Below are positions 21,511 through 57,621 of a stretch of 64,000 bases of DNA, piece after piece (position 1 is the stretch's first letter; each line of letters begins with the position of its first letter). The stretch comes from Methanoregula sp. GTDB taxonomy: Archaea; Halobacteriota; Methanomicrobia; Methanomicrobiales; Methanospirillaceae. Location of the stretch: assembly GCA_030651815.1 (NCBI GenBank), contig JAUSBW010000268.1:1-64000 (forward strand), read 5' to 3'. The position numbers were made by a program, and so were the translations under genes. The notes under the pieces are model-generated. The model saw only the letters and a program-made list of their open reading frames with translations. It was not told where the DNA came from and did no database searches.

Positions 21511-22824
21511 ATGGCAAAATACAAAGACACTATCGACCTCTACGACGATGAAGGCAAACTCTTAAAGAGCAATGTAACTCTTGAAAAGATCAGCCCCGTT
21601 GTCAACAAGGGCGCACTGAATGTCATCGACCTCACCAAGAGGACAGTGGCAGTTAACTTTGCAGGTATCGAAGATGCCTTAAAGACCGGAAAGATCGGCG
21701 GCAAGATGAACCAGGTTCTCGGCCGCAGCATGAGCTGCAGCTGTGTCAAGGACGCAGACGCACTCTCAGCCAAGATCAAGGACATGGTAGAGGTCACCGA
21801 GGGTGACAACACCAAGATCACCAAGGTCGGCGGCGGCAAGATGATCTTAGTCGAGGTTCCGACTTCCCGTATGGATGCAGCAGCAACCTACGATGTAGCA
21901 TCCACCGTAGTGGCAGCAGCCACCACCTATGCACTGGTTGACCAGTACAAGGTCGACATGTTCGACGGTTCCTACATCAAGGCAGCAGTCTGGGGTACCT
22001 ACCCGCAGACAATGGACATGCAGGGCGGCAATGTCGTCTCGATCCTGTCCATCCCCCAGTTCAACGAAGGTCTCGGCTATGCACTCCGTAACGTTCCGGC
22101 CAACCACGCGGTCATGATGACCCACCGGAATGCCATGCAGGGTGCAGCACTCTCAGCCACCTTTGAGCAGGCAGGTATGTTCGAGATGGGTAACGCAGTC
22201 GGCCCATTCGAGCGTGCACAACTCATGCTCTACGCATACCAGGGCCTGAATGCAAACAACCTCGTTTATGACCTCGTCAAGGCAAACGGCAAGACCGGTA
22301 CCATCGGTACTGTCGTGCAGAGCCTTGTAGAGCGTGCCATTGAGGACAAGGTCATCAAGGCAGGCAAGAAAGGCAAGAGCGGTTATATCTTCTACGAGAC
22401 CAAGGACCCGATGCTCTGGAACGCCTATTCATCTGCAGGAACCCTTGCAGCAACCATGGTGAACTGTGGTGCCGGACGTTTCGCCCAGGCAGTCTCAGCA
22501 ACCCTGCTGTACTTCAACGACCTGCTTGAGCACGAGACCGGCCTCCCCGGCTCCGACTTCGGTCGTACCATGGGTGTTGCAGTTGGTTTCTCGTTCTTCA
22601 GCCACTCCATCTATGGTGGCGGCGGTCCCGGTGTCTTTAACGGTAACCACGTAGTGACCCGGCATGCAGCCGGTGTCGGTATGCCCTGTATCGTCGCAGC
22701 CTGTGCACTCGATGCCGGAACCCAGATGTTCGGACCCGAGCACACCTCGAAGATCTACCAGGACACCTTCGGCCAGCTTGATGCATTCAGGAAGCCAATC
22801 CAGGCAATTGCAAAGGGTATCTAA
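21511..22824 (+). CDS. mcrB: Methyl-coenzyme M reductase subunit beta
   Basis: Canonical McrB sequence; GGAGG ribosome-binding site at about 21499. Confidence 0.98.
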   Translation: MAKYKDTIDLYDDEGKLLKSNVTLEKISPVVNKGALNVIDLTKRTVAVNFAGIEDALKTGKIGGKMNQVLGRSMSCSCVKDADALSAKIKDMVEVTEGDNTKITKVGGGKMILVEVPTSRMDAAATYDVASTVVAAATTYALVDQYKVDMFDGSYIKAAVWGTYPQTMDMQGGNVVSILSIPQFNEGLGYALRNVPANHAVMMTHRNAMQGAALSATFEQAGMFEMGNAVGPFERAQLMLYAYQGLNANNLVYDLVKANGKTGTIGTVVQSLVERAIEDKVIKAGKKGKSGYIFYETKDPMLWNAYSSAGTLAATMVNCGAGRFAQAVSATLLYFNDLLEHETGLPGSDFGRTMGVAVGFSFFSHSIYGGGGPGVFNGNHVVTRHAAGVGMPCIVAACALDAGTQMFGPEHTSKIYQDTFGQLDAFRKPIQAIAKGI

Positions 22825-22842
22825 ACCCCCCAAAGGATACGA

Positions 22843-23313
22843 ATGACAGAAGCCACGTTCCCCCAGTGCAGGATTATCCCAGAGCGGTTTCTTAATCCAG
22901 AGACTACGGAGCGCCTGCTGAACCGGGTTATCAGTGTTCCGGGAATACTGCGTATGGTCCTCAACGGGCCACGCCTTCCCGCAACAGTTACTTACGGACC
23001 CGCCAAAGGACTCGCTAATCCTCATACTATGAGGCAGAAGATCCAGGTGGGCGACCAGGAACTGGAACTGCAGGTTCATGTAGGCACTGTATTGCTCGAA
23101 ATTGAGAGCCGTGATGTGATCCCCGCACTGCAAGCCGCGATTGAACCGGTCTTTACTGATTTTACGTTCCGTATTCAGGAAGGCAGGTTCATGAAGACCG
23201 AGCCGTCACTTGTTGATTACTGCAAGTACGGCCCGGATGCGGACAAAACGATGCTCGGACTCGCTGATCCTAACAGCAAGTCCAGGCCCATAATCATCCA
23301 GGGAAATAAATAA
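22843..23313 (+). CDS. mcrD: Methyl-coenzyme M reductase operon protein D
   Basis: Position and conserved sequence (FLNPETTERLLN...). Confidence 0.95.
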   Translation: MTEATFPQCRIIPERFLNPETTERLLNRVISVPGILRMVLNGPRLPATVTYGPAKGLANPHTMRQKIQVGDQELELQVHVGTVLLEIESRDVIPALQAAIEPVFTDFTFRIQEGRFMKTEPSLVDYCKYGPDADKTMLGLADPNSKSRPIIIQGNK

Positions 23314-23316
23314 ATC

Positions 23317-23952
23317 ATGCCAATTGGACGAGTAACCCAGGTTGTTGACTGCCGCGAGGCGATGGGCATGGGTAAAGGAGGCGGGTTAGCCCAGCGGGGC
23401 ACCATCTCCGAATGCCGGTACCCGGATGTCATCGTGGTCGGGATGTCCCCCGGACGCCGCCACGTGACAAAGCCGGTGTGCGATATCACCTCAGGCCTGA
23501 GACAACAAGGCGTTGAATACAGTATCAGTACGCTGGTGCTGAATGCCGGAAGTGGCGTACCAAAGGACGCACCAAAAATTGCTGGTGGCGTTCTCGGCGC
23601 TTCATTTAGGTTATCCGACAAAGAGGTCATGCAGATAGAGAAACACAAAGTTGCCATTCTCCACCACGGGAATGTTCGTTCCCATGTGGTGCACAAGGTG
23701 CGGTTTATTCTGGCAAATTGTGATGTGAAGGCAGTTGTTGTTTCCCAATGCCCGGTTGATTACGAGGATCTCGCAAAGGAGGGAGTGAAGACTGCGGTGG
23801 TGATGCCCCCCGAAGGTAAGATCCGTACCAAAGGTACGGTGATGGCCATTGTGAGCGGTGTAACCCGTGGTCAGACCCCCACACGCGATAAGATGGCTGA
23901 AGTCATTTCGTCAGTGATGAGAATCGTGAAAAAGAAGGAAACATTGGAGTGA
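23317..23952 (+). CDS. mcrC: Methyl-coenzyme M reductase I operon protein C
   Basis: MPIGRVTQVVDCREAMGMGKGGGLAQRGTISECRYPDVIVVGMSPGRRHVTKPVCDIT. Confidence 0.97.
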   Translation: MPIGRVTQVVDCREAMGMGKGGGLAQRGTISECRYPDVIVVGMSPGRRHVTKPVCDITSGLRQQGVEYSISTLVLNAGSGVPKDAPKIAGGVLGASFRLSDKEVMQIEKHKVAILHHGNVRSHVVHKVRFILANCDVKAVVVSQCPVDYEDLAKEGVKTAVVMPPEGKIRTKGTVMAIVSGVTRGQTPTRDKMAEVISSVMRIVKKKETLE

Positions 23953-23959
23953 TAAAAAA

Positions 23960-24727
23960 ATGGCATACAAACCCCAATATGGTCCAGGTCAGACGCATGT
24001 CGCCGAAAACAGGCGCAAGCAGATGAACCCTGAACACAAGTTGGCAAAGCTTCGTGAGGTCTCGGACAAGGACGTTACCCTTGTTATGGGACACCGTGCA
24101 CCAGGTTCAGCCTACAAGAGTGCACACCCGCCGCTCTCAGAGCAGCAGGAACCCGCCTGCCCGGTCCGCAAGCTCGTGACCGCAACCGACGGTGCAAAGG
24201 CCGGCGATCGCATCCGTTACATCCAGTTTACCGACTCGATGTACAATGCACCCTGCCAGCCCTACCAGAGAAGCTACCTCGAGTCCTACCGCTTCCGCGG
24301 CATTGACCCGGGTACCCTCTCAGGCCGCCAGATCGTCGAGTGCCGCGAACGCGACCTCGAGAAATATGCCAAGGAACTCGTAGGCACCGAGCTCTTTGAC
24401 GCAGCCCTCACCGGTATCCGTGGATGCACTGTGCACGGACACTCCCTCCGTCTCGATGAGAACGGGATGATGTTCGACATGCTCCAGCGCTTTGTCATAG
24501 ACCAGAAGACCGGCATCATCAAGTATGTCAAGGATCAGGTCGGCGTTCCTCTTGATGCAGAAGTCAAGGTCGGCAAGGCACAGGACGCAAAGTGGCTCAA
24601 GGCAAACACCACCATGTTCCACTCTGTATGTGGCACTGGATTCCGCGACGATGCGGAATACGTTGAATACATCCAGCGCATCCACTCGCTGAGAGTGAAA
24701 TACGGCTTCATGCCTAAGGAGGCGTAA
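23960..24727 (+). CDS. mcrG: Methyl-coenzyme M reductase subunit gamma
   Basis: [19 protein letters not shown]...[11 protein letters not shown]. Confidence 0.98.
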
Positions 24728-24729
24728 TC

Positions 24730-26415
24730 ATGGCAAAAGCAAAGATCGAAAGAACGCAGAAGCTCTTCTTAAAGGCAATGAAGGAGAAGTTTGGGGGAGA
24801 CCCGCAGGCAACGTCAACCGTATTCGAGCGCAAGGGTCTTGAGCAGTCCCCGAGAAAAGTCGAGTTCATGAAGGCCGGCAAGAAAGCCGAGATGGACCGC
24901 GGCATCTCCATGTACGACCCGAAGCGCTGCCACTGTGGTGGTATCCCGCTCGGTCAGCGCCAGCTGACAACCTACGAAGTCAGCGGCACTGGTGTATTTG
25001 TAGAAGGCGACGACCTCCACTTTGTCAACAACGCTGCCATGCAGCAGATGTGGGATGATATCCGGCGAACCATCATCGTTGGCCTTGACCTCGCCCACCA
25101 GACCCTGCAGAAGCGTCTGGGGAAGGAAGTTACTCCTGAAACCATCAACGAGTACCTCCACGTGCTGAACCACGCCATGCCCGGCGCAGCAGTTGTCCAG
25201 GAACACATGGTCGAGACCCACCCGTCACTTGTCGACGACTGCTACGTGAAGATCTTCACTGGCGATGACGAGATGGCAGATGACATCGAGCCCCAGTTCC
25301 TCTTGAACCTTGACAAGCTCTTCCCGGCAAAGAGTGCAGCAGCACTCAAGGCCGCAATCGGCAAGTCGATGTTCCAGGCAGTGCACATCCCCACAACCGT
25401 CAGCAGGACCTGCGATGGTGGAACCACCTCCCGCTGGTCTGCAATGCAGATCGGTATGTCCTTCATCGGTGCATACCACATGTGCGCAGGCGAAGCAGCA
25501 GTTGCTGACCTCGCATTTGCCGCAAAGCACGCCGGTGTTATCCAGATGGCAGATATCCTGCCCGCCCGCCGTGCCCGTGGCCCGAACGAGCCAGGTGGCA
25601 TCAAGTTCGGACACTTCGCAGATATGGTCCAGGCAGACCGCAAGTACCCCAACGACCCCGTCAAGGCATCCCTTGAAGTCGTCGGTGCAGGTACCATGCT
25701 CTTCGACCAGATCTGGCTCGGATCCTACATGTCCGGTGGTGTCGGTTTCACCCAGTATGCAACCGCTGCATACACCGACAACATCCTCGATGACTACTGC
25801 TACTATGGTCTTGACTACATCAACTCCAAGCACGGCGGTCTCGGTAAGGCAAAGAAGACCCAGGAAGTCATCAACGACATCGCAACCGAAGTCACCCTCT
25901 ACGGTATGGAACAGTACGAACAGTTCCCGACTGCACTCGAGAGCCACTTCGGCGGATCCCAGCGTGCATCCGTACTTGCAGCAGCATCAGGTATCACCAC
26001 AGCACTGGCAACGGCCAACTCCAATGCCGGTCTGAACGGATGGTACATGTCCATGCTCGCCCACAAGGAAGGATGGTCACGTCTCGGCTTCTTCGGCTAC
26101 GACCTGCAGGACCAGTGCGGTTCATCCAACTCCATGTCGATCAGACCCGACGAAGGCTGTATCGGCGAGCTCCGTGGACCAAACTACCCCAACTATGCAA
26201 TGAACGTCGGACACCAGGGAGAATATGCAGCCATTGCAGCTGCCGCCCACTATGGACGCCAGGATGCCTGGACCCTGTCCCCGTTGATCAAGATCACATT
26301 CGCCGACCCGTCGCTCAAGTTCGATTTCTCCGAACCACGCCGCGAGTTTGCCAAGGGTGCAATCCGCGAGTTCATGCCCGCGGGCGAGCGCTCACTGATC
26401 ATACCAGCAAGGTAG
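24730..26415 (+). CDS. mcrA: Methyl-coenzyme M reductase subunit alpha
   Basis: 561 aa; [47 protein letters not shown]. Confidence 0.99.
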
Positions 26416-30215: not shown

Positions 30216-30253
30216 TTGGGGACTTCGTCCCCAAACCCCTAGGAACGAGGGGA
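30216..30253. repeat. Two adjacent hairpins at the junction with truncated mcrA
   Basis: TTGGGGAC-TTC-GTCCCCAA (30216-30234) and CCCCT-AGGAACG-AGGGG (30237-30253). Confidence 0.55.
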
Positions 30254-30262
30254 TTCCACCGC

Positions 30263-35751: not shown

Positions 35752-36240
35752 TCAGGATTTTTTCGTAACCTCAACCGGATCAATGTTCGCATCGATCAGG
35801 CAATCAAAGGATACCGTTTCAAGCCACCCGGCTTTCTCAAACATATGCATGAAGCTGACGCCAATAACTATTGCACCGGAATGTTTCGCTATAACCGCTT
35901 TTACCTGCTCGGCTTTCACCGGCACGTTGGGCATTGAGAGCCCGCCCATAATGACAATTGCTTTGGGCTTTAAGGCAACCGAAGCCACGCGAGCCTGCAT
36001 GCCAACGTCAGCGACATGGCTGATATTCTTGGCCCTGCTCTCGTCTACGAACGGGACAAATACCTGCTCCAGCTCGAGCGAGCGGAGGGCAAACCCAAGC
36101 AGCTCGACAAACGGTGTGCAGGTGCCCGGGACACCGTAGTACACAATCTGATCGCCTTTTTTCAATCCCTTTGCCTCGACAAATTCCTTAAACGGGCGCA
36201 GGATGCCCGGGACACCGTGGAAGATTTCCTTTGTGGCCAT
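35752..36240 (-). CDS. DUF2124 family protein
   Basis: VYYGVPGTCTPFVELLGFALR...IVIMGGLSMPN. Confidence 0.8.
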   Translation of the reverse strand: MATKEIFHGVPGILRPFKEFVEAKGLKKGDQIVYYGVPGTCTPFVELLGFALRSLELEQVFVPFVDESRAKNISHVADVGMQARVASVALKPKAIVIMGGLSMPNVPVKAEQVKAVIAKHSGAIVIGVSFMHMFEKAGWLETVSFDCLIDANIDPVEVTKKS

Positions 36241-37672: not shown

Positions 37673-37695
37673 TTATGCGCATATGAGTATTAATC
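37673..37695. promoter_or_regulatory. Shared motif TTATGCGCATATGAGTATTAATC, copy 1
   Basis: Near-identical to 51928-51948; lies between a TATA-like element and the NifX-like ATG. Confidence 0.6.
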
Positions 37696-37708: not shown

Positions 37709-38041
37709 ATGAAGTTATGTTTTACAGCAAAAGGCGCAACCCTCGACACCCTCTCAGAGGACAGGTTCGGGCGTGCACCGTATTTTATCATTGTTGAGAG
37801 CGAGAACGGATCCTTTGAAGCGATCCAGAACCCGTATGCCGATGGTGCGGGCGGCGTTGGCCCCAAAGCTGCTCAGGTACTCATCGCACACGATGTTAAG
37901 GCATTGATCAGCGGGCAGGTAGGCGGGAACGCACGTGAGGTAATCATTGGCGCAGGGATTGCGATGTACACGTACAACGCCGGCGGATCGGTGAAAGACG
38001 CATTCGACCAGTTCACGAAAAATACCCTTGTACGCTCATAA
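37709..38041 (+). CDS. NifX/NifB-type dinitrogenase iron-molybdenum cofactor-binding domain protein
   Basis: FGRAPYFIIVESENGSFEAIQNPY...GGVGPKAAQVLIAHDVKALISGQVGGNA. Confidence 0.88.
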   Translation: MKLCFTAKGATLDTLSEDRFGRAPYFIIVESENGSFEAIQNPYADGAGGVGPKAAQVLIAHDVKALISGQVGGNAREVIIGAGIAMYTYNAGGSVKDAFDQFTKNTLVRS

Positions 38042-38106
38042 CAGGGAGAAACAGAGAAACATACTCCGGCAGGAGACATATCGATGAGCCCACAGAGTGA
38101 TGAAAC

Positions 38107-38955
38107 ATGAAACTCGCAATTGCAAGTGGCAAGGGCGGTACCGGCAAGAGTATGGTAGCCGCAAATCTCGCCTTCACGCTCTCCCAGACTGAACCTGTCA
38201 CTCTCGTTGACTGCGATGTGGAGGAGCCAAATCTCCACCTCTTCTTCCCGGCGGCTGCCACGACAACGGAGGTTACCGTGCCGGTACCGGTTGTTGATGA
38301 TTTCTCCTGTAAATATTGCGGGAAGTGCGAGGACTTCTGCCAGTTTGGAGCGCTGACCGTACTCGAGAGCAGGGTCCTCTTCTTTCCCGAGCTCTGCCAC
38401 TCCTGCGGGGGGTGCACGCTGGTCTGCCCGAAAGGGGCCATCCACGAGGAGCCAAAAAGAATTGGAACCGTATCCATTTCTACTCCGCTGCCCCAGCTGA
38501 AGCTTATTTCAGGAATGTTAGACACCGGAATTCCCCATGCCGTGCCGATCATCAGGACCGCAAAAAAACTGGCAGTGGGCTATCCCCTGGTGATCTGCGA
38601 TACTGCGCCGGGCACCTCCTGTCCGGTTGTCGAGACACTGGACGGGTGTGATGCCTGTATCCTGGTGACAGAATCAACCCCGTTTGGCCTGCACGACCTG
38701 CGACTTGCCGTCGATGTGGCCGCCCGGCTGGGCGTCCCCATAGGCATCGTCATCAACCGTAGCGATGGAAAGGATCAGGCAACCCTTGCATTCTGCACCG
38801 ACCATGACCTTGAAGTGATGATGACCATTCCCTTCGAACGGGAAATTGCCGCCATCCAGAGCAGGGGAGATCTCCTCTGCCGGGTACGTCCGGAATGGCA
38901 GAAAGCCTTTGCCGCACTTTTTATCAAATGCAGTGCTCTTTCCGGGGGTGACTGA
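38107..38955 (+). CDS. MinD/ParA-like ATPase with inserted ferredoxin domain (1)
   Basis: SGKGGTGKSMVAANLA; CKYCGKCEDFC, CHSCGGCTLVCPKGAI. Confidence 0.9.
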   Translation: MKLAIASGKGGTGKSMVAANLAFTLSQTEPVTLVDCDVEEPNLHLFFPAAATTTEVTVPVPVVDDFSCKYCGKCEDFCQFGALTVLESRVLFFPELCHSCGGCTLVCPKGAIHEEPKRIGTVSISTPLPQLKLISGMLDTGIPHAVPIIRTAKKLAVGYPLVICDTAPGTSCPVVETLDGCDACILVTESTPFGLHDLRLAVDVAARLGVPIGIVINRSDGKDQATLAFCTDHDLEVMMTIPFEREIAAIQSRGDLLCRVRPEWQKAFAALFIKCSALSGGD

Positions 38956-39842
38956 TGATCCGGATTGCAGTGATCAGCGGTAAAGGGGGAACGGGCAAGA
39001 CGATGATCACCGCTGCGCTTGCCCAGTTGCTCCCGGGAAGCCTCGTGCTTGCGGACTGCGATGTAGACGCAGCGAATCTTGAGCTCCTTCTTAGCCCGAA
39101 GATAATCCGTACCGAACCATTCATGGGGATGAAGACTGCGGTGATCGATCCCACCCTCTGCGTACAGTGCGGAGAATGTGAAGCCCACTGCCGGTTCGAA
39201 GCGATTGCACGTGACGGGGATGCATACCGGGTAAGCCCGCTCCGCTGTGAAGGGTGTGCCGTGTGCACCTATGTCTGTCCTGCTGTTGCGGTCACCATGC
39301 AGCCGCGACAGACAGGTGAGATGATGTATTCAGATACAGAACGGGGGCACCTCGTGCATGCCCGTCTTGTGCCGGGCGCGGGCAACTCCGGGCTGCTTGT
39401 CTATGCAGTGAAAAAAACTGCCATGGAACAGGACCATAATTGCGATCTGTTCCTGATCGATGGTCCGCCCGGAACCGGCTGCCCGCTCATCTCCACAATC
39501 AGCGGTGTGGAGATTGTGCTGGTTGTCACTGAGCCGAGTGTCTCGGGGCTCCATGATCTCAAGCGGGTGGTGGAGGTCTGCCGGCAGTTCCGGCCACGGA
39601 TCCTTGTTGCGGTCAACCGGTTCGATCTGGAGCTGTCCCTTACAGAAACAATAAAGCTCTGGTGTAATGAAGAGCAGATTCCCATGATCGGGAAGATTCC
39701 CTTCGATCCTGTGGTCATCGAATTGGTCAGGAATGGCGTACCTGTCACCAGTGCAGGTACATCTCCCGCAGCACAAGCCATTCAAATGCTGGAATCCAAT
39801 CTTGAACAGGAGTTGAAGCACTATAGAGACCAGCGGAAGTGA
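38955..39842 (+). CDS. MinD/ParA-like ATPase with inserted ferredoxin domain (2)
   Basis: SGKGGTGKTMITAALA; CVQCGECEAHC, CEGCAVCTYVCP. Confidence 0.9.
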   Translation: MIRIAVISGKGGTGKTMITAALAQLLPGSLVLADCDVDAANLELLLSPKIIRTEPFMGMKTAVIDPTLCVQCGECEAHCRFEAIARDGDAYRVSPLRCEGCAVCTYVCPAVAVTMQPRQTGEMMYSDTERGHLVHARLVPGAGNSGLLVYAVKKTAMEQDHNCDLFLIDGPPGTGCPLISTISGVEIVLVVTEPSVSGLHDLKRVVEVCRQFRPRILVAVNRFDLELSLTETIKLWCNEEQIPMIGKIPFDPVVIELVRNGVPVTSAGTSPAAQAIQMLESNLEQELKHYRDQRK

Positions 39843-39873
39843 GGGGGGATGCCATCGACGGGGACGACCCCGC

Positions 39874-40239
39874 ATGAACCGGTCTATTGAGGGTGTGCCA
39901 TCTGCACGGTGCTATGCACCACAATGCAGCCCGAACAAACACGAGGAGATCGTTTCTCTGCTTCCCGAAGAACTGGCAGTACTGGATCTGATCGATCTGC
40001 AGGGTCTTGAACAGGAGCAGGCAGCAACAGTTCTCGGCGTCTCCAGAAAGACCATCTGGCGGGACATTCACGAGGCACGTCGCAAGATCACCGATGCCCT
40101 GATACATGGCAAAGCCCTGGAGATTGGAGGGTGCCTCCGCAGGCAAAAGGGGATCTGCCGTAGGGCGTCAGGAATTGACAACATCTCCCTGACAGGGAGC
40201 GCCGTTGACCAGTTGCCGGATGATCCCGGCGCTGAATAG
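39874..40239 (+). CDS. UPF0251/DUF134 HTH DNA-binding protein
   Basis: LDLIDLQGLEQEQAATVLGVSRKTIWRDIHEARRKITDAL. Confidence 0.85.
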   Translation: MNRSIEGVPSARCYAPQCSPNKHEEIVSLLPEELAVLDLIDLQGLEQEQAATVLGVSRKTIWRDIHEARRKITDALIHGKALEIGGCLRRQKGICRRASGIDNISLTGSAVDQLPDDPGAE

Positions 40240-40316
40240 TCACCGTGCAGCAGGAAGGAGACGATACCAATCATGATTTTTCTCCGGGCATGCAGCGGGA
40301 CAACGGGGTATGCCTG

Positions 40317-41270
40317 ATGACCCCCCGGCACATCTTCGGTCCGGTCCTCTCCCGCAGGCTTGGGCTCTCGCTGGGCGTTGACCTGATCCCGTTCAAGACC
40401 TGCTCCTATGACTGCGCCTATTGCGAATGCGGAACCACTACGGATAAGACCATCACGCGGCAGGATTTTTTTCCCGCTGAACACGTCATCACCGAACTCC
40501 GCGACGTGCTCGCATCCCATCCGCATCTCGATTCAATCACGCTTGCCGGTTCCGGTGAACCGACGCTCTCCCGTTCGCTTGGGCCGGTGATCGCTTTTGT
40601 GAAACGGGAGTACCCGGAATATACCTTAAGTGTCCTCACCAACGGGAGTCTCATGACCGATGAGAATGTGCGGGAGGAACTGGCCGTTGCAGACCGGGTG
40701 ATCCCGACCCTGACCTCGGTATTCCAGGAAACCTTTGAGCGCATACACCGCCCCCATCCCTTGCTCAGGATAGAGGCGATCATTGAAGGGATGGTGCAGT
40801 TCCGTAAGATGTATTCCGGTGCCCTCTGGCTCGAAGTGTTCGTCATCCCCGGCCTGAATACCACGGCAGAGGAACTGACCGGGCTGAAAGGGGCGATTGA
40901 ACGGATCAATCCGGATCATGTCCAGCTGAATACCCTTGACCGGCCTCCCGCAGAAGGATGGGTCGAGGCAGCAACAGACGCCGAACTGGAACGGGTCAGT
41001 GCGGTGCTGGGCGGATCGGGCATCGAAATTGTCGGCCGGAAACTTCCCGTTTCCCATGCAATGAAGGTGAACACGGACGCAGGCGATCTGGTCCGGGCAA
41101 CGCTCTGCCGGAGGCCATCAACGGTCGAAGACCTCGTACGAACCACCGGGCTGAGCGGTGGTGAAGTGGCAAAAATCCTTGGCGTGCTTGAACGGGCAGG
41201 CACAGTAACTTCAAAGCGGGGGGCTCGCGGAGTTTTTTATGCAATCTTACCGGGAAAAGACGATCAATGA
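40317..41270 (+). CDS. Radical SAM protein with C-terminal winged-helix-like region
   Basis: FKTCSYDCAYCECGTT; C-terminal STVEDLVRTTGLSGGEVAKILGVLERAG. Confidence 0.85.
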   Translation: MTPRHIFGPVLSRRLGLSLGVDLIPFKTCSYDCAYCECGTTTDKTITRQDFFPAEHVITELRDVLASHPHLDSITLAGSGEPTLSRSLGPVIAFVKREYPEYTLSVLTNGSLMTDENVREELAVADRVIPTLTSVFQETFERIHRPHPLLRIEAIIEGMVQFRKMYSGALWLEVFVIPGLNTTAEELTGLKGAIERINPDHVQLNTLDRPPAEGWVEAATDAELERVSAVLGGSGIEIVGRKLPVSHAMKVNTDAGDLVRATLCRRPSTVEDLVRTTGLSGGEVAKILGVLERAGTVTSKRGARGVFYAILPGKDDQ

Positions 41271-41280
41271 GGAAACACAA

Positions 41281-42129
41281 ATGAATGTTACTATCCTCGT
41301 GGACAACACCGCGCTCTTCGACCGGTTCTTCACCGCAGAGCACGGGTTTTGTGCATATATCGAAGCGGAAGGGTGCAGGGTCTTGTTCGATACAGGCTAC
41401 TCTGACGCCGTGCTGAAAAATGCGCAGAAAATGAAGATCGATCTTCTCGGTCTTGACTATATTGTCCTCTCACACGGGCATTTCGATCATACGGGAGGGC
41501 TCTATCATCTTATCCGGCTCTTCACAGAAGCGATCCTGGAAGATACTTCCTGCCACCTGCCCAGACTTATCGCCCATCCCTGTTGTTTTTACCCCCGTCC
41601 GAAACCGCCTCAGCCCGACATCGGGGCCATCCTCACAGCTGATGAAGTGCAGAGGATCATGCCGCTCAATCTATCAAAAGACCCGGTCAGTCTCACGCCG
41701 AACTTGTTCTTCCTCGGCGAGATCGAGCGGAAGTCCTCCTTTGAGACGACCCTCCCCGGCCCACGGCGCATCGTGCTGCCGGACGGGAGCATGCCAGAGG
41801 ATCGTCTGGTCGATGACACCTCCCTCGCTTTCCGCAGCCGTGAGGGACTTGTGATCATCACCGGGTGCGCCCATGCAGGGATCTGCAACACGGTAGAGTA
41901 TGCAAAGAAGATCTGCGGAGATAGCAAAGTACATGACATTATCGGCGGGCTCCATCTCCGTGGTGCCGGCACGCAGCTTGAAGGGACACTTGCGTACCTG
42001 AAAGACCAGAATCTTGCCGCACTCCATGCCTGCCACTGCACCGCACTACCGGCAAAAGTTGCCCTTGCGCAGGTCGCCCCGTTGCAGGAGACCGGTGTGG
42101 GGTTGCGGCTGGAGTACGGGGACCGGTGA
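41281..42129 (+). CDS. Metallo-beta-lactamase fold hydrolase
   Basis: LSHGHFDHTGG, ITGCAHAGICNTVEYAK, GGLHLRGAG. Confidence 0.88.
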   Translation: MNVTILVDNTALFDRFFTAEHGFCAYIEAEGCRVLFDTGYSDAVLKNAQKMKIDLLGLDYIVLSHGHFDHTGGLYHLIRLFTEAILEDTSCHLPRLIAHPCCFYPRPKPPQPDIGAILTADEVQRIMPLNLSKDPVSLTPNLFFLGEIERKSSFETTLPGPRRIVLPDGSMPEDRLVDDTSLAFRSREGLVIITGCAHAGICNTVEYAKKICGDSKVHDIIGGLHLRGAGTQLEGTLAYLKDQNLAALHACHCTALPAKVALAQVAPLQETGVGLRLEYGDR

Positions 42130-42421: not shown

Positions 42422-42838
42422 TCACGGGTGTGTTGATCTGAATCTGCAGATGGATTCTGTTATTGCCGAATCATTCCGGGCAAATTCCACAAACTGTTCC
42501 AGAGTTTTTAAGGTTTCGGGGCTGACATGATGCTCGATCTGGCAGGCGTCGACTTCAGCCAGTTCCCGGTCAATCCCCAGAATTTCCAGGAGATTAGCGA
42601 TAATACGGTGTTTCTGCATCAGCTCCCGCGCCATTTTTTTTCCGGAGCCAGTAAGGATTGCACCATTATACGACTCGTAATGGATAAGCCCCTCCCTCTC
42701 AAGCTTCTGCAGCATCTCGGTAATAGTGGGGGGTTTGACCCCCATGCGCGATGCGATCATCCCGGTCTGTGCACGCCCGTTCCTCTGTTCAAGAACGCAG
42801 ATGGTTTCGATATATTCCTCAATAGTCTTAGGTCGCAT
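42422..42838 (-). CDS. DtxR/IdeR-family metal-dependent regulator
   Basis: EEYIETICVLEQRNGRAQTGMIASRMGVKPPTITEMLQKLEREGLI; CQIEHHVSPET. Confidence 0.88.
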   Translation of the reverse strand: MRPKTIEEYIETICVLEQRNGRAQTGMIASRMGVKPPTITEMLQKLEREGLIHYESYNGAILTGSGKKMARELMQKHRIIANLLEILGIDRELAEVDACQIEHHVSPETLKTLEQFVEFARNDSAITESICRFRSTHP

Positions 42839-42849
42839 GTACCGTCACT

Positions 42850-44565
42850 TCATATGCCGAGCAATACCAATCTCATCACACCACCGACCACAAAGGCTGT
42901 GCCAGCCATGAAGGCGGTTGCCTTGATCATATCCCGGATCCCCAGCTCCCTGAACATCACTGCAAAGGTGCCAACGCAGGGAAAATAAACCGTGAGAAGC
43001 GTTGTTGCGATCACGAGCTGCATCGGGGACATGCCAAGGGGGAGAAGCATACCAACGGCGAGATCTTTTCGCAGGAACCCAATCAGGAGCGCTGTGGTGG
43101 CTTCCTTCGGAAGACCGAACCACCCCTGAATAACAGGAGCAAAAATACCACCCAGCCATTCCACAAAACCGACAGTGTAGAGGATATTGATGAGGAGCAC
43201 ACCGAGAAACAGGTACGGGATGGCTTCCTGAAGAAACCAGCGGATCCGCATCCAGGTCTTTTTAAGTACAGTTATGGTATCCGGCTTCCGGTACGGCGGG
43301 ATCTCAAGGCAGATCTCCGGGCTGTCCCCTTTTATCAGCCGGTTCAGGATAAGACCTGATGAGACGAATACGATGAACAGTGTTGCAAATACCAGGAAAA
43401 TATAGCCGATTCCATAGGGCCCAAGGATCCCAAACACCATGGCATTCTTTGCCATGCAGGGAACTGATATCGCAAGGAGGGTTGTAGCAATGAACCGCTG
43501 CTTTTTTGTTTCCAGGCTCCTTGCCGCGAGCACTCCGGGAACATTGCACCCGAGGCCCAGAAATACCGGAATTATTCCAAACCCGTGCATCCCGAACCTG
43601 TGGAAGATCGTGTCGGTAAGGGTGGCAAGCCGTGGAAGGTATCCTGAATCTTCAAAAATCGCAAGAACTGAGTAGAATGCGATGATATAGGGGAGCACCA
43701 TGGCAAAGGGGACATAAATACCCGTTGTCAGCAGCCCCATTGACTGGAGGTAATCGATTTGGCCGTCGATGAGTTGCCCGATGAGCAGTTCCTGCAGGAA
43801 TCCGGGCCCGAGCCAGGTGCTGATACCCATGGCGATCGGCGTATACAGGGTGAAGATAGGGTCGAAAATATAGGTAATCAGCGTTTCGCCGATAAAACTT
43901 ACAAGCCAGAGTGCAGCAAATATCACGGCAACCGCAATGGGAAAACCGGTGAGTGGCCGGATCGATGCTTCGGAAATCCAGTCCCGCAGCGTGTGATGAC
44001 GGTGAGTCACCTGCTGCACATTTCTGATGATCTCCCCGATTTTTATCCACCGCTCGCTTTCACTCATCGGTTTGATCTTTTCTGCAGAACGGGCTTCGTC
44101 AATCCGTCCGATGAGATCACAGATACCCTCCCCGCTCAGTGCCACCGTGGGAACAACAGGGATTTGAAGTGCGTGTTCGAGCTTTTTAATGTCTATGGAA
44201 ATACCCGTATGATGTGCTTCGTCCCACATGTTCAGGGCAAGGATCACGGGTTTTTTCTGTTCCAGGATCTGGAGCGTCAGGTACAGGTTCCGTTCAAGGT
44301 TTGTTGCATCAACCACATTGATGATCAGATCCGCCTGCCCAAACATCTCAAGGGCAACTTCTTCTGCCTTGTTGGAGGGTTCGAGAGAATAAGTACCGGG
44401 AGCATCGATGATCTCCTGACCTTCCTTCCCCAGACACATCCTCCCTTTTGAGAAGTCAACGGTAGTGCCCGGGTAATTCGAGGCAATAACATTGGCTCCG
44501 GTGAGACGGGAAAAGACAACGCTCTTGCCGACATTCGGATTTCCCATCAGCACGATCTTTTTCAT
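42850..44565 (-). CDS. feoB: Ferrous iron transport protein B
   Basis: VLMGNPNVGKSVVFSRLTG, GTYSLEPSN, multiple TM segments. Confidence 0.96.
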   Translation of the reverse strand: MKKIVLMGNPNVGKSVVFSRLTGANVIASNYPGTTVDFSKGRMCLGKEGQEIIDAPGTYSLEPSNKAEEVALEMFGQADLIINVVDATNLERNLYLTLQILEQKKPVILALNMWDEAHHTGISIDIKKLEHALQIPVVPTVALSGEGICDLIGRIDEARSAEKIKPMSESERWIKIGEIIRNVQQVTHRHHTLRDWISEASIRPLTGFPIAVAVIFAALWLVSFIGETLITYIFDPIFTLYTPIAMGISTWLGPGFLQELLIGQLIDGQIDYLQSMGLLTTGIYVPFAMVLPYIIAFYSVLAIFEDSGYLPRLATLTDTIFHRFGMHGFGIIPVFLGLGCNVPGVLAARSLETKKQRFIATTLLAISVPCMAKNAMVFGILGPYGIGYIFLVFATLFIVFVSSGLILNRLIKGDSPEICLEIPPYRKPDTITVLKKTWMRIRWFLQEAIPYLFLGVLLINILYTVGFVEWLGGIFAPVIQGWFGLPKEATTALLIGFLRKDLAVGMLLPLGMSPMQLVIATTLLTVYFPCVGTFAVMFRELGIRDMIKATAFMAGTAFVVGGVMRLVLLGI

Positions 44566-44795
44566 TCCGGATCCCCGGTGATGATGTGCTCTGCCATCCT
44601 GCGGCCGAGCGTCGTTTCCCTTCCATCAACTTCCACAACTACCGGTCCGTGGAACGGGTGTATTGCCACGAGACGGATTGTTTTACCTTCCCGGATTCCC
44701 ATATCCCCCATCTTTTTCCGGAACTGGAAACCGCCTTCCAACCGGAGAATTACCGCCCTTTTTCCGGGTTCAAGAGTTGATATTGGTTGTTCCAT
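44562..44795 (-). CDS. feoA: Ferrous iron transport protein A
   Basis: SH3-like FeoA upstream of feoB, ATGA overlap. Confidence 0.9.
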   Translation of the reverse strand: MEQPISTLEPGKRAVILRLEGGFQFRKKMGDMGIREGKTIRLVAIHPFHGPVVVEVDGRETTLGRRMAEHIITGDPE

Positions 44796-48130: not shown

Positions 48131-49129
48131 ATGGTGAGTTGGATGCAGGGACAGAAGATTACAGGGTTTCAGGGAAACAGAAATCGGGTCAGGACATGCA
48201 AACACAGCCGCATAATCATGGTATTGTGTGCAGTGGCAGGAGCTATGATCCTGCTCATGGCGGCCGGGTGTGTTCAGCAGCAGGGGGCAGGGGTGCCTGC
48301 GGATAACGGGACTACTCCCCTCACCGTTGCAGTCACGATCCTGCCACAGAAACAGTTCGTGGAGCGTATCGCCGGGGAACATGCCCGCATCATTGTCCTC
48401 GTTCCCCCCGGGGCAGATCCACACACCCATGAACCCACCCCGAAACAGCTGATGGATATCAGCCAGGCTTCGGTGTATGTCAAGGTGGGTTCCGGTATCG
48501 AGTTTGAACGGGCATGGATGGACAAGCTCAGCGGGGTCAATCCCCGCATGACCGTAGTAGACAGTTCCACGGGCATACTGTTGATTACCGGTCACCATGA
48601 TGATGCAGATGCAGCACCGGATGCTCATGATGAATCGGGAGAGCAAAGCGGTGCAGACCCCCATATCTGGCTCTCGCCGAAAAATGCAAAGATCATGGTA
48701 GAGAACACGTACCAGGGACTTGCCCGGGCAGATCCCGTACACAAAGCAGAGTACCGGGCCAATACCGACGCATACATCAGGGATCTTGACAAGCTCGATG
48801 CAGATATCAGCCACGAGATCTCCCGGAAGCAGATCCACACTATAATGGTCTATCACCCGGCATGGTCCTATTTTGCCCGCGATTATGGTCTTCTCCAGAT
48901 TCCCATTGAAACTGACGGCAAGGACCCCACCCCGATGGGAATAGAAAACCTCATACGGCAGGCAAAGGAAGATAACATTACTGTGGTCTTCGCATCACCG
49001 GAATACAGTACAAAGAGCGCAGACGTGATCGCAAAAGAGATCGGCGGCAGCGTGGCGCTTGTCAGCCCGCTGGAAGAAGATTATCTGGGAAATATCAGGC
49101 ATGTCTCATTCGCATTTACACGGGGGTAA
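48131..49129 (+). CDS. znuA: Zn/Mn ABC transporter substrate-binding lipoprotein
   Basis: LLMAAGC lipobox; PPGADPHTHEPTPKQL; HDDADAAPDAHDE. Confidence 0.88.
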   Translation: MVSWMQGQKITGFQGNRNRVRTCKHSRIIMVLCAVAGAMILLMAAGCVQQQGAGVPADNGTTPLTVAVTILPQKQFVERIAGEHARIIVLVPPGADPHTHEPTPKQLMDISQASVYVKVGSGIEFERAWMDKLSGVNPRMTVVDSSTGILLITGHHDDADAAPDAHDESGEQSGADPHIWLSPKNAKIMVENTYQGLARADPVHKAEYRANTDAYIRDLDKLDADISHEISRKQIHTIMVYHPAWSYFARDYGLLQIPIETDGKDPTPMGIENLIRQAKEDNITVVFASPEYSTKSADVIAKEIGGSVALVSPLEEDYLGNIRHVSFAFTRG

Positions 49130-49907: not shown

Positions 49908-49909
49908 CC

Positions 49910-51927: not shown

Positions 51928-51948
51928 TTATGCGCATATGAGTAATTA
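51928..51948. promoter_or_regulatory. Shared motif TTATGCGCATATGAGTAATTA, copy 2
   Basis: Identical to 37673ff over 18 nt. Confidence 0.6.
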
Positions 51949-51979: not shown

Positions 51980-52228
51980 ATGCCAGGATTAAACGGAACG
52001 GGACCAGAGGGAAATGGTTCGATTATAGGCAGGGGATTTGGCAGGTGCCGCATGGTACCTGCACAGGAACCTGCGGTCGCGGCACATTCGGCTCAGGATG
52101 AGAACGTACCTGCGATATCGCAGGGTTCTGCACAGAATATTCCGGTCTATGGCCGTGGGCGCGGGGGAATTCCCTGCGGGTGCGGACAGGGCTTTGGATT
52201 CGGTGGCGGCAGGCGCCTCCAGAGATAA
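51980..52228 (+). CDS. DUF5320-like glycine-rich protein
   Basis: MPGLNGTGPEGNGSIIGRGFGRC. Confidence 0.7.
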   Translation: MPGLNGTGPEGNGSIIGRGFGRCRMVPAQEPAVAAHSAQDENVPAISQGSAQNIPVYGRGRGGIPCGCGQGFGFGGGRRLQR

Positions 52229-52256: not shown

Positions 52257-52613
52257 ATGAAAGTTGCAATCGCAAAAGAGGGAGATATGGTGTCCGAGCA
52301 TTTCGGCCACTGTACTGAATACGCAGTGTTTGTTATTGAAAATTCAAAGATCACTTCACGGGAGATTCTTGAGAGCCCCGGGCACGAGCCGGGAAAGTTA
52401 CCGGGATTCCTTGCCGGGCATAAGGTCACGGACATCCTAGCAGGCGGCATGGGCCCACGGGCAGTGGACCTGTTCTGCGAAAATAATATCGAGGTATTCC
52501 TTGGAGTACGGGGTAAGATCGAGACCGTAATCAAGGATTTCATGGCAGGAAAGATTGCACAGGGTGAAAGCAGCTGCACCCACGGCCCCGATCACGAATG
52601 CAGTGGGCATTAA
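52257..52613 (+). CDS. NifX/NifB-type FeMo cofactor-binding domain protein
   Basis: MKVAIAKEGDMVSEHFGHCTEYAVFVIENSKI...GGMGPRAVDLFCENNIEVFLGV. Confidence 0.9.
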   Translation: MKVAIAKEGDMVSEHFGHCTEYAVFVIENSKITSREILESPGHEPGKLPGFLAGHKVTDILAGGMGPRAVDLFCENNIEVFLGVRGKIETVIKDFMAGKIAQGESSCTHGPDHECSGH

Positions 52614-52746
52614 CCCTATGGTATCACGTGCGCTCTCCTGAAGAGATGATGATCACTTCCCGTTTTACGGAAATGCGAGGCCGGATGTTCCAGCAATATA
52701 AAAAAGACGGCCTCTCACCGGGTAATTATTTTTGATACTGAATATT

Positions 52747-53589
52747 ATGACAGCAAAAACTCATGAACACACTGACCCGAAGGGTGCATCCCATGCCCCC
52801 AAAGGGTTGCCACCGAAGGCTAAGATCGATGTCAAACACGTGATCCTCGTCCTGAGCGGCAAGGGGGGCGTTGGTAAATCAACCGTTTCCACCAACCTTG
52901 CTTCTGCTCTCGCGGCTCACGGCAGGCAGGTCGGGCTACTCGATCTCGATATCCATGGCCCCAACATTCCCAAGATGCTGGGCATCGAAGACCAGCGCCC
53001 GGCCGTTCTTGAAAACAGCATGGAACCGGTCCATGTCACAGGAAATCTCTCGGTCATGTCGATGGCATTCCTGCTGCCGGATACGAGCACACCGGTTATC
53101 TGGCGCGGGCCGATGAAGATGGCGGTGATCCAGCAGTTCCTCTCTGAAGTGAACTGGGGTGCGCTGGACTACCTTGTTGTGGATCTCCCACCCGGTACCG
53201 GGGACGAAGCACTCTCCATTGTTCAGCTCTCACCGAACGTGCAGGGAGCTGTCATCGTGACCACCCCGCAGGAGGTGGCTGTGCTCGATGCGATCAAGGC
53301 AATCAAGTTCATAGAAAAACTGGACCTGCCGGTGATTGGGATCATCGAGAACATGAGCGGCATGATCTGTCCCCACTGCGGGGATACTATAGACCTGTTC
53401 GGCAGGGGTGGCGGGGAGAAGGCTGCACAGGAACTGGGCGTGCCGTATCTTGGCTCCATCCCGCTCGATCCGGCGATGGTGAAAGCCGGTGATGAGGGGC
53501 GCCCGTATGTCCTCCGTCATGCGGATACCCCCACATGGAAGGCCGTGGATGCCGTGATGAAAAATCTGGTAAAACTGGTTGAATCCTGA
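52747..53589 (+). CDS. Mrp/NBP35-family ATP-binding protein (1)
   Basis: LSGKGGVGKSTVSTNLASAL...DIHGPNIPKMLGI...CPHCGDTIDLFG. Confidence 0.95.
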   Translation: MTAKTHEHTDPKGASHAPKGLPPKAKIDVKHVILVLSGKGGVGKSTVSTNLASALAAHGRQVGLLDLDIHGPNIPKMLGIEDQRPAVLENSMEPVHVTGNLSVMSMAFLLPDTSTPVIWRGPMKMAVIQQFLSEVNWGALDYLVVDLPPGTGDEALSIVQLSPNVQGAVIVTTPQEVAVLDAIKAIKFIEKLDLPVIGIIENMSGMICPHCGDTIDLFGRGGGEKAAQELGVPYLGSIPLDPAMVKAGDEGRPYVLRHADTPTWKAVDAVMKNLVKLVES

Positions 53590-54454: not shown

Positions 54455-54859
54455 ATGACGGACAAAAGAGAGATTGAATTGCCCCAATGCCCCCGCAGGG
54501 GAAGACCCCGTATCCGGCGCATCATTGAAGGGACCGGGGAGTCGCGCTGCTACGAACCCCGCTGCTGCCCGCATGAAGACGGTATCGTAATCTCTTTAAA
54601 ACCTGAAGAGATTGAACTTATCCGTCTTGTCGATCTCGAAGGGCTCGAACAGGAAGAAGCCGCAGCAAAACTGGGAGTCTCCCGCAAAACTGCGTGGCGC
54701 GATCTGCATGAAACCCGGAAAAAAATTGCCGATGCACTGGTGAATGGCAAGGGTATCGAGATGTCCGGGTGCCGGAAAGCAGCGGAAGGCCAGTGCCCGA
54801 AATGCTATCGCAGAAAGGGAGAACACAGGGTCGCTCACAATGAGAGTACATTCGCGTAA
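54455..54859 (+). CDS. UPF0251/DUF134 HTH DNA-binding protein
   Basis: IRLVDLEGLEQEEAAAKLGVSRKTAWRDLHETRKKIADAL. Confidence 0.88.
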   Translation: MTDKREIELPQCPRRGRPRIRRIIEGTGESRCYEPRCCPHEDGIVISLKPEEIELIRLVDLEGLEQEEAAAKLGVSRKTAWRDLHETRKKIADALVNGKGIEMSGCRKAAEGQCPKCYRRKGEHRVAHNESTFA

Positions 54860-54892: not shown

Positions 54893-54925
54893 TTACGCTC
54901 ATAAGTGTAATTAATCGATTACACT
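54893..54925. promoter_or_regulatory. Related motif TTACGCTCATAAGTGTAATTAATCGATTACACT containing perfect 8-6-8 dyad
   Basis: AGTGTAAT-TAATCG-ATTACACT at 54904-54925, upstream of small ORF and atwA. Confidence 0.6.
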
Positions 54926-54937
54926 ATAGAGGGATAT

Positions 54938-55084
54938 ATGCCAAACTTTGACGGAACGGAACCGATCAGACGCGGGCGGGCGATCGGGCGGGTACCTGGT
55001 CCCTGCAAAAAAGGCAACGAGTGCTCCCCGTGCCAGAGGAAGGATGCACCAGAGAATACAAAAGAAAAACCGGATACCCTGTAA
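54938..55084 (+). CDS. Small Cys-containing DUF5320-like protein (48 aa), absent from ORF track
   Basis: MPNFDGTEPIRRGRAIGRVPGPCKKGNECSPCQRKDAPENTKEKPDTL*. Confidence 0.6.
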   Translation: MPNFDGTEPIRRGRAIGRVPGPCKKGNECSPCQRKDAPENTKEKPDTL

Positions 55085-55102: not shown

Positions 55103-56689
55103 ATGACCACACCATTTCTTTCTGTTGATAATCTCTGCATGGAGTTCGAGGGAAAAAAAGTCTTAAACAACATTTCCTTTGAGATCCCCGAAGGCGAGAT
55201 CGTCGGCGTCATTGGCAGGAGCGGGGCGGGAAAGAGCGTGCTTATGCACCTGCTCAGGGGCGTTGAGCAGCCCCCGACAAGCGGTTCTGTGATCTACCAC
55301 CTGAGCACCTGCAACACCTGCGATCACATGGAAGTGCAGAGCCGGGCCGGAAACCGCTGCCCATCGTGTGGAGGAAAACTGATCGCAACGGACGTTGATC
55401 TCTGGGGCGAGGAGACGGACGGCATGAAAGCCCGGGTGATGCACCGGACTGCGATCATGTTCCAGCGGACATTTGCCCTGTATGGCGATGACCGGGTGAT
55501 CGAGAATGTGCTCCACGCGCTCGATGATATCAACTACCCACAGGAGCATGCGATCACAAGAGCGGCGGACCTTATTGACCAGGTACGGCTCTCGCACAGG
55601 ATGATGCACATTGCCCGCGATCTCTCAGGAGGCGAGAAGCAGCGGGTAGTGCTCGCCCGGCAGCTCGCAAAGAACCCGGCACTGCTCTTTGCCGACGAAC
55701 CGACCGGTACGCTCGATCCAGAAACCGCGCGTATTGTGCACAGCATGCTCATTGAAGCAGCACAGAGAAACGCGATGGGCATGATCGTCACCTCGCACTT
55801 CTCGCAGGTGATTGAGGATATGGCGAACCGTGCGATCCTCCTTGTTGACGGGAAGATCGAACACATTGGATCCCCAAAAACGGTGATCCGCACGTTTGCC
55901 AAAGGTCAGCACGAAGAAGAGCGGACCGCACCTGCGGAGTTCGGGGAGAAGATTCTTTCCGCACGGGATGTGACCAAGCGCTACATCTCGGTGGATCGCG
56001 GGGTGGTGAAAGCGGTAAACGCAGTCACGTTCGATGTTGCCCAGAGAGAGATCTTCGGTATTATCGGCAAGAGCGGGGCGGGCAAGACCACCCTCTCCCG
56101 GATCATATCGGGTATCATCGAACCCACCAGTGGCGAGATGAACATCCGTATCGGTGATGACTGGGTGGACATGACAAAGCCCGGCATCGACCAGCGGGGC
56201 AGGGCCAAGGAGTATATCGGCCTGCTCCACCAGGAATATGATCTCTTCCCGCACCGCACGGTGCTCGACAACCTGACAGACTCGATCGGTCTTGAATTTC
56301 CCAAGGAGCTTGCCATGCGTAAAGCGCTCGTCACCCTCGCTATGGCCGGGTTTGAGCCGGAACGGGCTCACGAGATCCTTGACCGGTACCCGGCAGAACT
56401 CTCCGATGGCGAGCGGCACCGGGTAGCACTCGCCCAAGTGCTCATCCGCGAGCCGCGCCTCGTGATACTCGATGAACCGACCGGCACCATGGACCCGATC
56501 ACCAAGCAGGATGTGAAGCACTCGATCCTGCACGCCCGCGATGAGATGGATGAGACTTTTATCGTGGTCTCGCATGACATGGACTTTGTACGGGATGTGT
56601 GCGATCGTGTAGCCCTGATGCAGGGCGGAAAAGTGATCGAGATAGGAAAGACTGCTGACGTGCTCGCCGGCATGAATGAGAGCAACTGA
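55103..56689 (+). CDS. atwA: Methyl-coenzyme M reductase system component A2 (dual ABC ATPase)
   Basis: Two Walker A/LSGGE-type domains (GRSGAGKS, GKSGAGKT) with inserted CNTCDHM...CPSCGGK. Confidence 0.9.
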   Translation: MTTPFLSVDNLCMEFEGKKVLNNISFEIPEGEIVGVIGRSGAGKSVLMHLLRGVEQPPTSGSVIYHLSTCNTCDHMEVQSRAGNRCPSCGGKLIATDVDLWGEETDGMKARVMHRTAIMFQRTFALYGDDRVIENVLHALDDINYPQEHAITRAADLIDQVRLSHRMMHIARDLSGGEKQRVVLARQLAKNPALLFADEPTGTLDPETARIVHSMLIEAAQRNAMGMIVTSHFSQVIEDMANRAILLVDGKIEHIGSPKTVIRTFAKGQHEEERTAPAEFGEKILSARDVTKRYISVDRGVVKAVNAVTFDVAQREIFGIIGKSGAGKTTLSRIISGIIEPTSGEMNIRIGDDWVDMTKPGIDQRGRAKEYIGLLHQEYDLFPHRTVLDNLTDSIGLEFPKELAMRKALVTLAMAGFEPERAHEILDRYPAELSDGERHRVALAQVLIREPRLVILDEPTGTMDPITKQDVKHSILHARDEMDETFIVVSHDMDFVRDVCDRVALMQGGKVIEIGKTADVLAGMNESN

Positions 56690-56748
56690 CATCACACCTC
56701 CTGCTAATGCATCGGGTTGTTCACACACCAACAAGGATGAATTACACC

Positions 56749-57621
56749 ATGACACAACACACATCTGCCAAAGATACAAACTGCGATGAGAACGGCTCCA
56801 GCTGCTCTTCCGGATCAACACCCCAACCCCAGAAAGGGCTGCCGCCGCGATCAAAAATCGACGTGAAGCATGTGATCCTTGTGCTCAGCGGGAAAGGAGG
56901 AGTAGGCAAGTCCACGGTCTCGGTTAACCTCGCATCCGCACTCTCCGCTCACGGGAGAACTGTGGGACTCCTCGATCTCGATTTTCATGGCCCCAACATC
57001 CCCAAGATGCTGGGCATCGAAAGCCAGAAACCAGCCGTTATAGAAAAGCACATCGAGCCTGTGCATGTAACCGGAACGCTTTCGGTAATGTCGATGGCAT
57101 TCCTGCTGCCGGACACGAGTACCCCGGTGGTCTGGCGCGGACCGATGAAGATGGTGGCGATCCGGCAGTTCCTTGATGAAGTGAACTGGGGAACGCTTGA
57201 CTACCTTGTCGTGGATCTGCCTCCGGGAACCGGAGACGAGGCCCTCTCGATCGCGCAACTGGCACCGAACGTGAAAGGTGCAGTCATTGTGACGACACCG
57301 CAGGATGTGGCTGTGCTGGATGCAGTCAAATCGGTGAAATTCATCCAGAAACTGGAAATTCCGGTCATCGGCATCATCGAGAACATGAGCGGGATGATCT
57401 GCCCCCACTGCGGAGATACCATAGACCTGTTCGGAAGGGATGGCGGGAAGAAGGCGGCTGAAGATCTGAACGTTCCGTTTCTCGGTGTAATCCCCCTTGA
57501 CCCGGAGATGGTGAAAGCCGGTGACGAGGGGCGACCCTACGTCCTTCGCCATACAGATACACCTACGTGGAAGGCCGTGGATGCAGTTATGGAAAAACTG
57601 GTAAAACTGGTCGAGTCCTGA
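56749..57621 (+). CDS. Mrp/NBP35-family ATP-binding protein (2)
   Basis: Close paralog of 52747-53589. Confidence 0.95.
   Translation: MTQHTSAKDTNCDENGSSCSSGSTPQPQKGLPPRSKIDVKHVILVLSGKGGVGKSTVSVNLASALSAHGRTVGLLDLDFHGPNIPKMLGIESQKPAVIEKHIEPVHVTGTLSVMSMAFLLPDTSTPVVWRGPMKMVAIRQFLDEVNWGTLDYLVVDLPPGTGDEALSIAQLAPNVKGAVIVTTPQDVAVLDAVKSVKFIQKLEIPVIGIIENMSGMICPHCGDTIDLFGRDGGKKAAEDLNVPFLGVIPLDPEMVKAGDEGRPYVLRHTDTPTWKAVDAVMEKLVKLVES

Follow-up and report, generated by a model that had tools for sequence, protein, structure and literature searches.

A predicted operator shared by an ORP-like iron-sulfur carrier module and a second MCR-activation ATPase in Methanoregula

The stretch of Methanoregula sp. 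DNA analysed here (the window, 64,000 nucleotides of contig JAUSBW010000268.1, assembly GCA_030651815.1; contig C44 in our numbering of this 3.28 Mb, 99.9% complete methanogen genome) carries a locus of six genes, nifX1-minD1-minD2-DUF134-radical SAM (rSAM)-MBL (metallo-beta-lactamase fold), which by its sequence is an iron-sulfur (Fe-S) carrier module resembling the orange protein (ORP) complex, a variant with its own predicted regulon. We propose that this module, together with A2b, a second copy of component A2 of methyl-coenzyme M reductase (MCR) activation encoded in the same window, would act as an accessory, stress-time kit for the reactivation or maintenance of MCR, united through the palindrome TRCNCATATGNGYA and most likely controlled by DUF134, a reading to which we give a probability of about 0.4. 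At the level of sequence, the parts of the module, their conservation, the operator that they share and their recurrent pairing with a duplicated A2 are established; for their purpose, the leading reading that we infer is (re)activation of MCR or repair of Fe-S clusters. As far as the literature was searched, a module of this kind tied by a common operator to a duplicate MCR-activation ATPase has not been described, and a literature search for COG1149 together with COG1433 returned no match. The reduction and upkeep of MCR in methanogens is a major open question in which accessory factors remain unidentified, and a small regulon with an exact operator, a spare A2 and Fe-S carriers provides candidate genes by name and predictions open to test. 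For the DUF134/UPF0251 family, on whose function the literature library searched yielded no paper, it would supply a first cellular context and DNA target, and for ORP-like systems outside sulfate reducers a possible purpose.

A palindrome shared by dispersed genes

The operator pattern was derived from an alignment of the regions upstream of nifX1 in 17 relatives, in which the dyad TRC-N-CATATG-N-GYA is nearly invariant and stands directly behind a TATA-like box. Two exact sites were found in the window against 0.01 expected by chance, and three in the whole genome. The site before the A2b operon is degenerate and counts through its position alone, because two-mismatch matches are common by chance; relatives carry an exact site at this place. 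The strongest evidence for one regulon is that the pattern found at nifX1 was then recovered before nifX2 and A2b without refitting. The 89 module loci (1.35 Mb) hold 110 operator sites, against at most two for any of the 63 alternative palindromic cores of this frame, and no site was found in 28 control loci holding a canonical A2 or mcr only (478 kb). The first gene downstream of these sites is nifX1 (42 sites), nifX2 (22), A2b (17), DUF134 (7), MBL (5) or mrp (3). In 108 genomes the pattern has 235 sites and the reversed one 41. Among the additional sites are some in front of DUF5320-nifX2, or of a gene that we take to be DUF169-like, directly behind mcrA. The predicted operator common to nifX1, nifX2, the second A2, MBL and mrp appears to be new. 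DUF134 is the natural candidate for the regulator acting through it, because the protein has a helix-turn-helix (HTH) and conserved Cys, lies in or near most operator loci, and in the altiarchaeal locus L166 follows an operator site at a distance of 28 bp.

A few sites stand apart. The third exact site of the genome (G000:C211:2069; position 1501 of L253) lies between an MBL-fold open reading frame (ORF) and a dehydratase-like one and may be a matter of chance. The sites before the DUF169-like gene, a possible further member of the regulon, are at 2069-2110 of L286 (G034), directly behind mcrA, and at 1996-2052 of L290 (G024). The perfect palindrome TGCACATATGTGCA is found in genus g10 at places without module genes (L288 of G022, 2046; L291 of G024, 2077).

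A constant core, a duplicated A2 and the neighbourhood of mcr

The original prediction, made from the letters of the window, had described six genes running in one direction with short gaps, and this is confirmed by ORF coordinates and Pfam: all six are on the plus strand, the widest gap being the 65 bp between nifX1 and minD1, with an overlap of 1 bp for minD1/minD2, 5 bp between DUF134 and rSAM, and an overlap of 32 bp for rSAM/MBL. The six form one operon in this genome, of which rSAM and MBL are optional members elsewhere. The expectation that the genes would be linked in other genomes holds for the core and only in part for the rest, rSAM and MBL being often unlinked. minD1 is present in 54 of 108 genomes of the same family, and nifX1-minD1-minD2 is constant in the 57 family loci read with their flanks, minD1 and minD2 adjacent and nifX1 immediately before them in every locus whose contig is complete, a linkage far from chance. 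DUF134 comes straight after in 42 of the 57 loci; rSAM follows directly in 15, with MBL behind rSAM in eight. A scan of named genomes, read with profiles built in this analysis, extends the same core, accompanied by nifX2, mrp, DUF134 and sometimes rSAM, to other anaerobic archaea and to bacteria of anaerobic habit, namely Bathyarchaeota, Asgard, Thermoplasmatota, Chloroflexi, Clostridia and Deltaproteobacteria. Remnants were met in two module-less genomes: minD2 fragments lie between mcr and rSAM-MBL in G043 (L183, 6489-6600), and G005 (L300, 1781-2037) keeps the operator, with a 70-aa vestige of minD2 and then MBL behind it. The module has therefore sometimes been lost and is dispensable.

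A2 is present in at least two copies in most of the family's genomes. The MCR activation complex, which contains L-cluster-like relays and is expected to involve further auxiliary factors, has the canonical A2 as its ATPase (PMC12176620). A2b resembles this A2 in scoring above the equivalog cut-off of TIGR03269 and in keeping every Walker A/B and signature motif of both ABC halves as well as the Cys cluster, its nearest PDB sequence being 8s7v/9h1l; it differs in being a second copy with another gene neighbourhood and its own operator, and the likeness is one of sequence. Classing the flanked A2 loci by whether module genes (DUF134, mrp, nifX, minD, MBL, DUF2124) occur within 8 kb gave 40 with such neighbours and 23 without. 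This split is set by definition, and the informative facts are therefore those of the single-copy and two-kind genomes: in all nine single-copy genomes read A2 has no module neighbour, and all 11 genomes in which both kinds were read hold one copy without module neighbours and another with them. The A2 tree shows repeated origins of module-linked copies: they are sister to their own canonical copy in f14 and f3/g26 and among the copies of g13, and form at least one group elsewhere in the family; a single old clade of module-linked A2 was rejected (p-AU 4e-68). The module-linked second copies apparently stem from several independent duplications, which seems to be a new observation.

The module is also a neighbour of the full mcrBDCGA operon in the window. 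The distance from minD1 to mcrA is 0.6-17.5 kb in 23 genomes and comes in two orientations, with mcr upstream and co-directional in genera g1, g2, g8, g10 and g11 and families f3, f4 and f14, and downstream and convergent in g13 and g17. These counts are not independent, given the kinship of the genomes, and the two orientations and the separate families make the better argument. One large contig of family f14 (G124) carries a single co-directional array, mcrBDCGA-DUF134-nifX2-mrp-A2b-nifX1-minD1-minD2-nifX2-nifX-DUF134. Proximity to mcr appears to be a feature, and a new one, of Methanoregulaceae-type genomes and a few other lineages, not of most of the order or of Methanosarcinaceae. As a general rule, mcr linkage is false in f2, f5, f6 and f8, the last of which includes Methanosarcina-type genomes. 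The genome has further copies of mcrA: one, truncated at its N-terminus (profile positions 119-548), lies at 30249-31544 on the plus strand, 4 kb behind the full operon, and a third, full-length, is on contig C99.

Known relatives and competing readings

The ORP complex of Desulfovibrio comprises the orange-type Orp8, Orp3 and Orp4 with two ferredoxin motifs each, Orp5 and MrpORP (Orp9), and in vitro MrpORP transfers Fe-S clusters to Orp3-Orp4-Orp8 (PMC6345978). The window offers an Orp8-like NifX-fold protein (NifX1 against ORP, PDB 2wfb, E 3e-9), paired ATPases with two [4Fe-4S] motifs each, likened to Orp3/Orp4 by their motifs, and an equivalent of the carrier composed of Mrp and a NifX domain. 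This last is split into two adjacent genes, mrp1 and nifX2 (scoring 363 and 95 bits, where the profile of the fused protein requires 450), 14 kb away from nifX1-minD1-minD2, whereas a mrp-nifX2 fusion as in MrpORP stands beside the core in two deltaproteobacterial loci (L164, L170). Unlike the sigma54-dependent divergent operons of the ORP complex, the window has a co-directional operon with a TATA-like box, a palindrome and DUF134, and the module is archaeal, with a second A2, rSAM, MBL and DUF5320 added. Archaea are not known to have sigma54. The name ORP-like, and not strictly ORP, is used because neither the Mrp-NifX fusion nor sigma54 control is found here.

Along their whole length, the best sequence matches of NifX1 are MTH1175 and TM1816 (PDB 1eo1, 1rdu), which are structures without an assigned function. 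IssA, the thioferrate storage protein of Pyrococcus, shares the domain family and has a cationic, thioferrate-binding C-terminal tail, whereas NifX1 (110 aa) ends right after the domain (PMC8351635, PMC6345978). A role in nitrogenase cofactor assembly (NifX/NafY) was rejected, since NifX1 has no NCBIfam match, the NifX equivalog included, and no NifD over the cut-off is present in this genome. The original prediction had seen in the set a pathway that assembles or delivers a cofactor and has a regulator of its own; the ORP-like Fe-S carrier module and the shared palindromic operator agree with this in part, and delivery of a particular metal cofactor does not emerge. That prediction contained neither the ORP likeness, nor the link to mcr and a duplicated A2, nor the part of the system at 52-57.6 kb (DUF5320, nifX2, mrp, DUF134b, A2b, mrp2).

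We hypothesise that DUF134 would repress in the ground state and release upon loss or oxidation of a Cys-bound metal or cluster. MinD1 and MinD2 may then act as ATP-gated carriers of Fe-S clusters or electrons, NifX1/NifX2 and Mrp could hold clusters and pass them on, and A2b would dock on MCR like the canonical A2 and open it, allowing inactivated MCR, or its Fe-S relay, to be re-reduced or repaired. The kit would work beside the constitutive A2/Mmp machinery. It can tentatively be imagined, as a possibility well short of even odds, that a DUF134-controlled, conditional reactivation or repair of MCR by ORP-like ATPase-ferredoxins, NifX and a dedicated A2 paralogue amounts to a second activation route that was assembled more than once.

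Several observations weigh against a role devoted to MCR. The distance between minD1 and mcrA is at least 66 kb in 30 methanogen genomes of other lineages with long contigs, so that proximity to mcr is restricted to certain lineages. The loci of f14 have no operator, which confines the claim of a regulon to Methanomicrobiales and a few others, and an operator before mcrB was rejected, with a site in 0 of 21 upstream regions. Complete methanogen genomes of the same family, including some of the same genus, lack the module though mcr is present; the module is thus accessory, and a requirement in basal methanogenesis was rejected. Since it is also common among organisms without MCR, it is neither needed for nor specific to MCR. 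The repeated duplication of A2 could, moreover, be mimicked by gene conversion after an old duplication; under either history, one A2 copy keeps its tie to the module genes.

It is quite plausible, if short of an even chance, that we are dealing with a generic ORP-type module of Fe-S or Mo/Cu homeostasis without a special tie to MCR, the A2 copy having been recruited to another ABC-ATPase task and the closeness to mcr reflecting shared high expression or inherited gene order. The same core in many organisms without MCR and its separation from mcr in most other methanogens speak for this, as does the Mo-Cu cluster bound by the Desulfovibrio orange protein (PMC6345978); the A2 copies of several lineages that are tied to module genes and have the operator in common speak against it, together with the complete catalytic motifs and MCR-activation equivalog score of A2b. 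A more specific alternative is that the L-cluster made by NifB is carried by NifX1/NifX2 and handed to the MCR activation complex (McrC/Mmp7), the MinD ATPases and Mrp assisting. This is conceivable because the genome, which has nifB and no NifD over the cut-off, encodes no PF02579 proteins other than NifX1 and NifX2, and because L-cluster-like clusters occur in the activation complex (PMC12176620). We consider it unlikely, mcr being still present in complete methanogen genomes without nifX1-minD1-minD2, and NifX1 being closest to MTH1175, TM1816 and ORP. That the genes are independent neighbours whose shared direction is incidental would fit the absence of rSAM and MBL from most loci or their location elsewhere, and is very improbable in view of the overlapping or closely spaced genes, the invariant core and the shared operator.

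Gene layout of the window

The features of the window are listed in Table 1. DUF134 appears to have no usual start codon (region 39817-39876). Its start is probably the ATA at 39823, so that the gene overlaps minD2: the conserved RRGRPR motif lies 5' of the first ATG (39874), TTG occurs close to this place in five relatives, and the Pfam score rises from 57.8 to 69.5 bits (cut-off 27) upon extension to 39823. In several relatives, as in the window, ATA precedes the conserved N-terminus in frame, and others have TTG. In the AlphaFold2 model, the fold of MinD1 comes closest to MinD, ApbC and NifH/BchL-type ATPases, the ferredoxin insert being too uncertain for detail. Sequence searches of the PDB with rSAM and MBL as queries gave nothing beyond remote or unnamed relatives.

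Table 1. Genes and predicted operator sites of the window
Feature	Coordinates	Strand	Assignment and evidence
mcrBDCGA	21511..26415	+	Full operon
Operator, TGCGCATATGAGTA	37676..37689	.	Predicted; exact copy before nifX1, just behind TATA-like box
nifX1	37709..38041	+	NifX-fold, Orp8/MTH1175/TM1816-like; Pfam PF02579 78 bits (Nitro_FeMo-Co); PDB 1rdu, 1eo1, 2wfb
minD1	38107..38955	+	MinD-type ATPase, inserted 2x[4Fe-4S] ferredoxin (two CxxCxxCxxxC motifs), Orp3/Orp4-like; Pfam CbiA/ParA; Walker A and 8 Cys conserved
minD2	38955..39842	+	Second MinD-type ATPase, 2x[4Fe-4S] ferredoxin (two CxxCxxCxxxC motifs); Pfam CbiA/ParA; Cys and Walker A conserved
DUF134/UPF0251	39823..40239	+	HTH and Cys motifs, candidate regulator; likely start ATA 39823, first ATG 39874
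rSAM	40245..41270	+	Radical_SAM 43 bits; C-terminal winged-helix-like part (weak HTH match); optional member
MBL-fold hydrolase	41239..42129	+	TM1679-like; Lactamase_B 51 bits; PDB 2p4z, 3h3e; optional member
Operator, second exact copy	51931..51944	.	Predicted; before DUF5320-nifX2-mrp1
DUF5320-like small Gly-rich protein	51980..52228	+	PF17253 26.8 bits, just below cut-off 27; same gene, same place in relatives
nifX2	52257..52613	+	Resembles MrpORP NifX domain; NF041136 positions 265-364, 95 bits; Pfam; HFGHC motif
mrp1	52732..53589	+	Mrp/NBP35 Fe-S carrier; resembles MrpORP ATPase domain, NF041136 positions 3-251, 363 bits; CPHC motif
DUF134b	54455..54859	+	Second DUF134 protein; Pfam 78.8 bits (cut-off 27)
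Operator, degenerate	54896..54909	.	Predicted; 2 mismatches; before A2b operon
Short DUF5320-like ORF	54938..55084	+	48 aa, heads A2b operon; taken straight from the letters
A2b	55103..56689	+	Second copy of MCR-activation component A2 (AtwA-type ABC ATPase); TIGR03269 849 bits, cut-off 517
mrp2	56707..57621	+	Mrp/NBP35 Fe-S carrier; aligned with mrp1; Walker A, CxxC conserved

On its downstream side the six-gene locus is flanked by a DtxR/MntR-like regulator with feoAB (42422-44795, minus strand) and by a zinc/manganese-type ABC transporter (48131-50716, plus strand). Upstream, at 35752-36240 on the minus strand, lies DUF2124, a member of an archaeal family of unknown function that recurs by mcrA, nifX1 and A2b in many relatives.

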